Source: Talaromyces rugulosus (lineage: Eukaryota > Ascomycota > Eurotiomycetes > Eurotiales > Trichocomaceae). Taken from it: a DNA stretch of 64,000 nt. Positions 60,277 through 64,000 of this stretch are shown here, piece by piece (position 1 is the stretch's first letter; each line of letters opens with the position of its first letter). The DNA is taken from assembly GCF_013368755.1 (NCBI RefSeq), contig NC_049561.1, positions 620,001 through 684,000 of the forward strand, read 5' to 3'. A program made the translations under genes and the position numbers. The notes below the pieces were generated by a model, which was not told where the DNA came from, ran no database searches, and saw only the letters and a list, made by a program, of their open reading frames with translations.

Positions 60277-60601
60277 TCTAGTTAGATGTGATTGCATCCG
60301 CATTGCTTTTTTCGCCACCACAGGCCCTTATTAGGAAATATTAGGATTTCAGTGACCGGCAATTGGACCTTTCAAGTTGTTTGATACGCTAAAAAGGTTA
60401 CTACCTTTGTTTAGCAATCTATATTCCTCACTAATTCTTCATCCCGGTTCATCCAAAGAAAGATGCACTAGCTACCTTCACACCACTTACTCTTCCGATG
60501 TTTAACTTCGATATCGAACATTGGACAATGTCTTTTTTTTTTGTTTTTTGAGATAAAAAAATAACAATGCATGTAAGGATTCTGTGTACGAAAAAAAGAA
60601 A
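60277..60601. other. Spacer with Pol III terminator of the first tRNA gene
   Basis: No gene seen. The A7 run at 60592-60598 is the T7 terminator of the minus-strand tRNA at 60602-60750. A second longer T-rich tract lies near 60531-60548. Confidence 0.5.
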
Positions 60602-60750
60602 TGACTTGTGCCAGGCTCGATCTGGCGACCTCTTGTGGTCTGACATTACAATATTGCAAGTGTTAGACAAGCGTGATAACCTGATATTTGTTAGATGAAA
60701 GCTTATGATTCGTTTGAAGGAAGGAGACTAACCAACTACACCAACAAGCC
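60602..60750 (-). tRNA. tRNA-Val(AAC) with canonical intron and a D-loop insertion, copy 1
   Basis: Read on the minus strand, the acceptor 5' arm GGCTTGT pairs with 3' ACAAGTC, with discriminator A73. Anticodon stem CTTGT/ACAAG and T stem GCCAG/CTGGC are perfect. The D stem has G10-C25, U11-A24 and G12-C23. The anticodon loop is CUAACAC, giving anticodon AAC. A 23-nt intron follows A37, with G at intron position -3 able to pair with C32 (the A-I pair used by the tRNA splicing endonuclease). A second, 52-nt segment interrupts the D-loop between G18 and G19: it starts GTTAGT, has CTAAC near the end, and ends CAG. T7 terminator follows. 74 nt remain after removing both inserts. Confidence 0.8.
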
Positions 60751-61036
60751 ACGATGATTGGAGGAAACAATTATAATTTGAATCTTATTTCATCTCTAAA
60801 TCACCTTGCAACGATGTTAAAAAACCGGGGTGGCCCTAGAAAATAGAATAGGAATAAATATTGCAGGTAAAAAAATGAGTTCGATTCACTACGTATATTT
60901 AAGGTTTCTTTGCCAGTATTAGGATCATCTACTAGCCAATATTTTTATGATAACAAGATTCAAGTAAAGGACCCTCAGGACGAACACGCCAAAAAAGATA
61001 CTGGAAGGACGAATGGAACATCGAAGCAAAAAAAGA

Positions 61037-61187
61037 TGACTTGTGCCAGGCTCGATCTGGCGACCTCTTGTGGTCTGACATTACAATAAGTTGCAAGTGT
61101 TAGACAAGCGTGATAACCTGATTTCTGTGAGACAAAGTTTGTGGGACAACGTTGAGAGATGCTACTAACCAACTACACCAACAAGCC
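61037..61187 (-). tRNA. tRNA-Val(AAC) with canonical intron and a D-loop insertion, copy 2
   Basis: Same cloverleaf as the gene at 60602-60750; the 74 mature positions appear identical. The D-loop insertion is again 52 nt, GTTAGT...AATCAG, with CTCAC in place of CTAAC near its end. The intron after A37 is 25 nt and keeps G at -3 opposite C32. A T7 terminator follows (AAAAAAA at 61029-61035 on the plus strand). The sequence upstream of the gene is unrelated to that of copy 1, so this is not simply a long recent tandem duplication. Confidence 0.8.
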
Positions 61188-61349
61188 GTGTTGGCTGCCA
61201 AAGAGATTTATCTCTTATAAGGTAAAGTCTACATTTCGACGGAAAAATAGACCAATGACACATGGCGGCAGCGGTGGGGCCATGTTAAAAAAATATATAT
61301 ATGGAGAAAAGGTTTTGGTCGAATCGGTAAATGATTTTACCAAAAATAA

Positions 61350-61502
61350 TGACTTGTGCCAGGCTCGATCTGGCGACCTCTTGTGCTCTGAACTTTGCAA
61401 TATTGCAAGTGTTAGACAAGCGTGATAACCTTTTGTTGTCGTTAGATAAGAGTTTGTTGAACACTGGGATCAGAAAGAACTAACCAACTACACCAACAAG
61501 CC
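61350..61502 (-). tRNA. tRNA-Val(AAC) with canonical intron and a D-loop insertion, copy 3
   Basis: Third member with the same mature 74 bases. The D-loop insertion is 55 nt, starts GTTAGT, contains CTAAC and ends AAAAG. The intron after A37 is 24 nt, differs at several bases from the other two, and still has G at -3 opposite C32. A T5 terminator follows (AAAAA at 61343-61347 on the plus strand). All three genes are transcribed leftward, with 286- and 162-bp spacers. Confidence 0.8.
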
Positions 61503-61990: not shown

Positions 61991-64000
61991 CTAATATCCG
62001 CCACTATTAAGAAGCGTGCTAAAGATGCTATCTTTCCGACTAGCCAGAACTCCAGGTCTATCCATCTCCACTACCTTTCCCCGATCTAGACCGAAAACTA
62101 GATCATGGCTCAAAAGAGTGTGGACACGATGTGCAACCGTAAGGACAGTACATGCACGAAAGGGATCCTGCTGTAGAAGGTCCTGCACACCGGCGTCGGT
62201 TTTCATGTCGACGCTACTCGTACCTTCATCAATCAATAAGATCCTGGCGTTACTTGCTTTTATTTTAAGCATCGCACGTGCAATTTGTAGCAGTTGTTGC
62301 TCTCCGCGAGAGAGCGATAGAGTGTCGTTTATCTCGGCATCTAGCCCGCCTCTTTCGAGTAGCACACCATCCCATATTCCAGCTCGGTCGAGAGCTGCAA
62401 TGATGTCTACGTCGGGTAGGGTTTCGGTAGGATCTAGATTGAATCTGATTGTACAGCCAACCATGATGAATGGTGCCTGGGAGATGGTGACAAGCCTTTC
62501 GCGGACTGTGTCCGGGGAGAGAGTAGCGAGGTCAATATCGTCGATAACAATTGACCCGTGGGTCACAGTGAGCATGCCTAACAACGTAGATAGTAAAGAA
62601 CTCTTTCCACTAATTTATTACACGGTTGAAGTTAGCTGAGACTAGTAATCCTAACACTCAGTAGGACTCTTAAGGTAATGATGGACTCTTAAGGTAATGA
62701 TCCTTACCTCCCAGTACGTCCGTAGATACCGATTTTCTGACCTGGCAAACATTTCAGTGAAACATTGCTTAGTATCGCTGCTTCGGAACTTTCGTGGTTC
62801 ATTAATAATGCGAACAAAATTTAGTCATGGCTTACTGCGAAATACATACTTGTATTGTGCAGTAATTTCCGAGATATTAATAGCCCCCTGACTTGGCCAG
62901 TCGATGGGAACTTCTTCTCCCTGCTCAGTTGAACTTTCACGTGGTACTGTACGTTCAAAATCTTTGACTCGAAAAATGGAACCAAGGGATATCTCCAGTT
63001 GTGTCCAACCCAATATGAGAGACGAAAGGCTACCATTGAAGGCTTCGTAAAGACAAGTTAGCTGGGTAAGTATATAGTGGCCATGACCCTTTAATGGGCA
63101 CTATCATCAAAGTTACGTTCCACCAATAAGACATACCGAGAATGCTATTAAGCGATACTCCAAGCAATCCGACACTCGTTGTATGTCTTAAAGACACAGC
63201 TAAACTGACGACAATGACCGCTTCGGCAGCGACGATGAGATTCAAGACCAAAGTGAGCCAGCGCTGAATGCAATTAAGCATATAATACGTGCGCTGGGTA
63301 GCATCCAGAAATTTTGAATTGGCGACTCGAAAATCTGCTTCCCAGCCAAATGCCTGGATTGTAGCGAGACCCTCGATAGTGTCAAGAATATGGGAGTACA
63401 ATGGACTTCGGCTTTCTAGATCCAGTAAACGGAGTTGTCGCGATGTTTTCAGATAGAAATGCTGTAAAACAAAGAGGGAGATAAGCAGGAAAGGCACAGA
63501 TATTGCCATGTACTTTGATCCGGTTGCAATTAATGCAGCATTCGCAATTGAAGAAAAGAGATCTGGATTTATTAGCAATAAGATCGATAATGGCGAGGAA
63601 GTATTTCCAGAGTTCGGGTGGAATGGTGGAATGGTAGGGGTCTTACTTGAGACTGTTATTAAGATGCCAACGGGCAAATCGCTTTCTATAAGGGTCATAT
63701 CCTGGCTAAACCGATTTAGTATTGATCCGATGTTGGTGGTGACTAGGAATTGAGGCGTTGCCCTTAAGATGTCAGTAGTTGATTGAGACGTGAGAGCAAA
63801 TATTGAACGTACATCATGACAGTCTTTAGTACGACATAATGGAGACGGCGCGCTGTAGAGGGCGAGATCAGAACAAGTATAGCCCTGTCGCTTTGTTAGG
63901 AAATGTAAAAAGATATTTTTTGTTGGACATAACGGTTCACCAAACATAGCCACCATTTCCGACTGTGTTGCCTATGGCGAGGAGGAAATAAACCGTGACA
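61991..64000 (-). CDS. ABCC-type (MRP-like) ABC transporter, C-terminal half, cut by the window end
   Basis: ATP-driven membrane exporter. Exons on the minus strand: >64000-63941, 63884-63813, 63762-63647, 63562-63137, 63042-62850, 62788-62708 and 62609-61991. All phases agree through to the stop at 61991. The first part is the end of the second transmembrane domain (ATPQFLVTTNIGSILNRFSQ, ESRSPLYSHILDTIEGLATI). The second nucleotide-binding domain has Walker A GRTGSGKSSLLSTLLG (split by an intron), signature LSLSRGEQQLLQIARAML, Walker B ARILLIDEGTSSVD and an H-loop AHRVHTL. The YNSEAAILSNVSLKCLPGQ strand before Walker A is typical of ABCC proteins. The start lies beyond 64000. Confidence 0.9.

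Follow-up and report, generated by a model that had tools for sequence, protein, structure and literature searches.

D-loop inserts with mRNA-type splice signals in three tRNA-Val(AAC) genes of Talaromyces rugulosus

Three genes for tRNA-Val(AAC), here called copies A, B and C, lie on the minus strand of a 64,000-nucleotide stretch of the Talaromyces rugulosus genome (the window; positions 620001-684000 of contig C1). Each of them is interrupted twice, once in the D-loop, between G18 and G19, and once between positions 37 and 38 of the anticodon loop. The D-loop inserts bear the splice signals of the host's own mRNA introns. The three copies are quite probably functional tRNA-Val(AAC) genes, each combining a 37/38 tRNA intron with a minimal GT-AG intron of the spliceosomal type in its D-loop. 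The completion of a tRNA may therefore depend on the mRNA splicing machinery.

A sequence-only reading of this DNA had placed two inserts in each of three minus-strand tRNA-Val(AAC) genes, with lengths of 52, 52 and 55 nt in the D-loop and of 23-25 nt at 37/38. The genes and both of their inserts are indeed there, and exon comparison among the copies returns the same lengths. The anatomy, which is observed directly, is as follows.

61350-61502, minus strand: tRNA-Val(AAC) copy A, the 5'-most on the minus strand (exon match, and a Val(aac) call after insert removal)
61485-61502, minus strand: copy A exon 1 (positions 1-18)
61430-61484, minus strand: copy A D-loop insert, 55 nt, GTTAGT...CTAAC...AAG (alignment and splice-signal score)
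61410-61429, minus strand: copy A exon 2 (G19 to A37), with the anticodon AAC
61386-61409, minus strand: copy A 37/38 intron, 24 nt (exon match and ARAGORN)
61350-61385, minus strand: copy A exon 3 (38 to 73)
61342-61346, minus strand: copy A T5 run, presumed Pol III terminator
61037-61187, minus strand: tRNA-Val(AAC) copy B (exon match, and an ARAGORN call after insert removal)
61170-61187, minus strand: copy B exon 1
61118-61169, minus strand: copy B D-loop insert, 52 nt, GTTAGT...CTCAC...CAG (alignment and splice-signal score)
61098-61117, minus strand: copy B exon 2
61073-61097, minus strand: copy B 37/38 intron, 25 nt (exon match and ARAGORN)
61037-61072, minus strand: copy B exon 3
61028-61034, minus strand: copy B T7 run, presumed Pol III terminator
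60602-60750, minus strand: tRNA-Val(AAC) copy C (exon match, and an ARAGORN call after insert removal)
60733-60750, minus strand: copy C exon 1
60681-60732, minus strand: copy C D-loop insert, 52 nt, GTTAGT...CTAAC...CAG (alignment and splice-signal score)
60661-60680, minus strand: copy C exon 2
60638-60660, minus strand: copy C 37/38 intron, 23 nt (exon match and ARAGORN)
60602-60637, minus strand: copy C exon 3
60591-60597, minus strand: copy C T7 run, presumed Pol III terminator

The exons of each copy add up to 18+20+36 = 74 nt, and all 74 bases are identical across the three. The D-loop insert does not sit at the canonical site, which is occupied by the separate intron of 23-25 nt.

Standard finders can overlook essential tRNA genes, and here ARAGORN and Rfam missed all three of those for Val(AAC). 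Over the whole window, ARAGORN reported no tRNA gene, and Rfam gave no match at its gathering thresholds. Between positions 60550 and 61560, Rfam gave no match up to E = 10, with the catalytic-intron (group I and group II) families included. Introns of groups I and II are, of course, far larger than 52-55 nt.

The cloverleaf had been said to require removal of the D-loop insert, and the ARAGORN calls agree. Offered the full genes, the program called Val(aac) in none of the three; offered genes from which only the 37/38 intron had been deleted, it again called none. With only the D-loop insert deleted, all three copies were called as Val(aac) with an intron of 23-25 nt, and Val(aac) was also called with both deleted. 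The spliced D-loop predicted for copies A, B and C is AGTTGGTTA, the same as the D-loop of tRNA-Val(TAC) in this genome. The D-loop of tRNA-Val(CAC) of the same genome is also uninterrupted. The tRNA-Val(TAC) gene lies on contig C6 (about 1963143-1963236, minus strand) and its A37 is followed by an intron of about 20 nt; ARAGORN mislabelled it Cys(aca).

The D-loop inserts were described as starting with GTTAGT, ending with AG and carrying CTAAC or CTCAC near the end, and this description holds. The donor GTTAGT and the terminal AG are present in all three. The branch-like motif is CTAAC in A and C and CTCAC in B, and its A lies 12, 10 and 10 nt from the end of inserts A, B and C, respectively. 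Donor, branch-like motif and acceptor are the features that the three inserts have in common at matching places. Because GGTTA is repeated at both ends of the insert, it can be excised in six registers that give the same product, and exactly one of these reads GT...AG.

These signals can be compared with those in mRNA introns of the same genome, which were rebuilt by spliced alignment to yeast small GTPases (30 loci, of 51 matched places). The 72 distinct introns so obtained were filtered by flank and total score to leave 43; one of the 29 that were dropped has a GTTAGT donor. The alignment allowed only GT..AG stretches of 40-139 nt, so GT, AG and these length limits are built into the reference set, whereas its other features are not. 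Its members are 50-126 nt long (median 61), a span that includes the 52, 52 and 55 nt of the inserts. Their donors are GTGAGT (6), GTATGT (4), GTACGT (4), GTTAGT (2) and others, and a CTNAY, placed so that its A precedes the acceptor by 7-23 nt, stands near the 3' end of 38 of the 43. CAG or TAG closes 42 of the reference introns, and just one has an A at that place; inserts B and C end in CAG, insert A in AAG. A survey of the window and the loci by composition only had given 19 candidate introns; their donors were inconsistent, and these candidates were set aside.

Scored with matrices built from these 43 introns, inserts A, B and C reach 12.2, 14.5 and 17.8. The reference introns, scored by leave-one-out, run from 7.3 to 24.5 (median 19.7). 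The inserts are thus low within the range of real introns, with 2, 3 and 13 of the 43 scoring below A, B and C. Of 20,000 mononucleotide shuffles per whole insert, 2, 1 and 0 attain the score observed for A, B and C; when GTTA is kept fixed, the corresponding counts are 80, 34 and 0. The fixed-GTTA counts for A and B mean that part of the donor may serve the A box, or may be a duplication. The window itself holds 3,203 GT..AG stretches with a length of 50-56 nt; 110 of them equal or exceed the score of A, 42 that of B and 12 that of C. Thus, a single insert is not decisive, and the strength of the case lies in the agreement of three diverged copies. The sequence TTTT is absent from all three inserts, which might be taken as avoidance of T runs under Pol III; this is not telling, since TTTT is also absent from 14 of the 20 mRNA introns of 60 nt or less.

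The ordinary tRNA introns of the same fungus offer a negative control. ARAGORN called an intron in 26 of the 40 distinct tRNA sequences examined (a few of the 26 are near-identical), and with the borders taken as ARAGORN gives them, none of the 26 reads GT...AG in any equivalent register. The Val(AAC) genes resemble these others in that they also carry an intron at 37/38; their D-loop inserts differ from all 26 in reading GT...AG.

This difference bears on the proposal that the tRNA splicing endonuclease removes the D-loop insert, as is supposed for the ectopic introns of a red alga, and that the GT, the branch motif and the AG are coincidence. Certain eukaryotic endonucleases do accept introns at non-canonical positions (PMC4090602, in excerpt). 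Further, in the GTTAGT register each copy can form three of the four central pairs of a bulge-helix-bulge, one of them G-U. In that register, however, none of the three outer-helix pairs forms in any copy, and all four central pairs form in 0 of the 18 registers (six per copy), by a simple pairing count that had no positive control. The insert interiors, moreover, show no relationship to one another that could be detected, and thus give no sign of a shared structure. Endonuclease removal of the D-loop insert is, on this evidence, unlikely.

The divergence of those interiors can be stated in numbers. Copies A and B match at 26 interior positions (shuffles average 24.4, and 148 of 500 do at least as well), A and C at 25 (average 25.1; 303 of 500) and B and C at 26 (average 23.7; 92 of 500). 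For the 60-nt flanks, three comparisons give no more than chance similarity: upstream B-C (matched by 271 of 500 shuffles), downstream A-C (372) and downstream B-C (136). The other three show a weak similarity: upstream A-C (8 of 500), upstream A-B (25) and downstream A-B (40). The 37/38 introns are alike between copies, with 20/23, 20/23 and 23/23 aligned positions identical in the three pairs. Exon 1 is 18 nt long, or 24 with the GTTAGT, and has diverged stretches on both sides, yet it is identical in the three copies. Because such short exons remain identical between diverged stretches, purifying selection would be the simpler explanation; gene conversion with tracts so short is possible, but strained.

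In eukaryotes, the valine codons GTT and GTC are decoded by the tRNA with the anticodon AAC (inosine), which means that a working Val(AAC) gene is needed. Of the 496 valine codons counted in the window, over 16 long open stretches that are not each proved genes, these two account for 319. An uninterrupted tRNA-Val(AAC) gene elsewhere, which had been named beforehand as the genomic part of what would count against the sequence-only reading, was not found by DNA and pattern searches that covered six contigs (35.76 Mb) non-exhaustively. With the full copy C gene (149 nt) as query, only copies A, B and C were found in the genome; with the 74-nt spliced sequence, only pieces of them. A pattern joining the D arm to the AAC anticodon occurs at three places in the genome, which are A, B and C. 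A related D-arm/anticodon pattern, with up to three mismatches, occurs at five, and the two beyond A, B and C have no intact TAACA. The eight places that match a T-arm pattern, again with up to three mismatches, are A, B and C, two Asn genes, Val(TAC) and two without an intact TCGA. A fourth exact match to the anticodon-arm pattern, on contig C6, was rejected, no D or T arm being visible nearby by eye.

The interrupted D-loop was itself made into a pattern, AGTTGG/GT...AG/GTT, with four matches genome-wide: A, B and C, and one on contig C3. Its reversed control gave nine matches, so chance matches are to be expected for this pattern. Viral contigs gave no match to the interrupted-tRNA structure, and the 149-nt copy C gene, as query, revealed no second genomic location from which insert C could have come. 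The Rfam tRNA search of the genome scored 63 of 941 candidates, and gave at least 44 tRNAs at E <= 0.001 and at least 46 at E <= 10. It missed Val(TAC), and the searches for further Val(AAC) genes are accordingly not exhaustive.

This last point is one of two that favor taking copies A, B and C as tRNA pseudogenes, with the valine codons GTT and GTC being read by something else. The other comes from the literature. In eukaryotes, an insertion in the D or T arm is mostly seen in a single tRNA gene out of many synonymous ones, and is taken as the sign of a pseudogene (review PMC4090602, in excerpt). Here, however, the insert is present in all three copies found. Their exons are identical at 74 of 74 positions beside diverged inserts and mostly diverged flanks, each copy has kept a terminator-like T run, and neither DNA nor pattern searches gave a further Val(AAC) gene. 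These features make the pseudogene explanation improbable, more so than removal by the endonuclease. Of the two outcomes left by the sequence-only reading, a second processing step or RNAs that are never matured, the first is favored by the identical exons beside diverged inserts, by the lack of any uninterrupted Val(AAC) gene among those found and by splice signals of the host type.

The copies are presumably transcribed by Pol III. Poly-T terminators had been claimed for them, and a T run of 5-7 does lie downstream of all three, starting 3-5 nt past each gene, with no TTTT inside the genes. The A and B boxes are 108-112 nt apart in copies A, B and C, versus 53 in Val(TAC). The A box spans tRNA positions 8-19 (PMC3978253, in excerpt). 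The first bases of the insert, GTTA, are the same letters as those of the exon from G19. The A box therefore reads undisturbed into the insert. The presence of one and the same uncommon donor in all three copies could be due to a GTTAGT that doubles as donor and as the end of the A box. The insert would thus sit where a donor can double as the end of an A box, and this may have a bearing on how introns are gained.

The path to a mature tRNA would then be the following. Starting from the A and B boxes, Pol III would produce a precursor of about 150 nt. The spliceosome would remove the D-loop insert, branching at CTMAC and joining G18 to G19, which would leave the D-loop as AGTTGGTTA. The tRNA splicing endonuclease would presumably remove the 37/38 intron, as it does with other introns of this family. 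It is likely, if a little less so than the intron assignment itself, that these two machineries both act on one precursor, and that the decoding of GTT and GTC depends on the spliceosome. Spliceosomal removal, the lariat it would produce, the order of the two steps and the origin of the inserts are what we infer from the sequences.

A tRNA might also function with the insert retained, as a giant D-loop. The integrity of the exons would, taken alone, be compatible with this. G18 and G19 normally touch the T-loop, however, and a retained insert would separate G18 from G19. Moreover, the inserts share their ends and a branch-like motif, and do not share an interior. A tRNA with a giant D-loop is hardly credible here, and removal by splicing is the reading retained below.

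Most eukaryotic tRNA introns are at the canonical site, and real ectopic introns are those of algal nucleomorphs and of Cyanidioschyzon merolae (PMC4090602, in excerpt). These resemble the present case in having D-arm introns in eukaryotic tRNA genes, and in Guillardia theta some tRNA genes have two or three introns. They also differ from it. The ectopic introns of C. merolae are tied to the bulge-helix-bulge and the tRNA endonuclease, and those of G. theta are 3-24 nt long, with a removal mechanism stated as unknown; the excerpted text of PMC4090602 contains no GT-AG description for either. According to a 2026 review, tRNA splicing is independent of the spliceosome and has no GT-AG signals (PMC13149111, in excerpt). 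Every detected Val(AAC) copy having a GT-AG intron would, if true, break this rule. It would make a tRNA precursor a substrate of the spliceosome, and would tie the translation of two valine codons to the mRNA splicing machinery. No title or abstract opening among the literature matches listed reports introns of the GT-AG type in tRNA genes, in a search whose scope took in only a minority of subscription papers.

Further parallels are found among other small RNAs. The U6 intron of fission yeast is about 50 nt long. This U6 is a Pol III transcript with a spliced intron of the mRNA type, so that U6, in fission yeast and other fungi, offers a spliceosomal intron in a short, structured Pol III transcript (PMC10484740, in excerpt). 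U6 differs, of course, in being a component of the spliceosome; the origin proposed for its intron is reverse splicing close to the U6 catalytic bases. A tRNA has no such place in the spliceosome. The host tRNA-Val(AAC) additionally has the tRNA-type intron at 37/38. Fungal U3 snoRNA is alike in having a short GT-AG intron with a branch motif in a structured non-coding RNA, and differs in not being a tRNA. According to a 2017 paper, frequent interruption by an intron was known, among small structured RNAs, for U3 and U6 alone (PMC5832005, in excerpt). If the present reading is true, tRNA would be a third kind of small structured RNA colonised by such introns.

Neither of the two U6 genes found in this genome has an intron, and this, like the AAG end of insert A, counts against the present reading. 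One of them (contig C4, 2469452-2469551) has a B-box-like match, GGTTCGAACCC, at 2469571-2469581, about 20 nt downstream; this nearly palindromic match was reported on the strand opposite to the gene. Some other tRNA genes also deserve mention. Two adjacent tRNA-Asn(GTT) genes on contig C2 (673681-673998, minus strand) have very similar exons, and introns of 35 and 41 nt that are different by eye. A tRNA-like gene at 602940-603015 of contig C1, perhaps Thr(TGT), was given an odd anticodon by ARAGORN and may hold a tiny intron. Within the window, a perfect 19-nt tandem duplication, GGACTCTTAAGGTAATGAT, occupies positions 62664-62701, and an MRE11 reading frame has 97% identity to one other protein and 88% to the MRE11 of Talaromyces proteolyticus.
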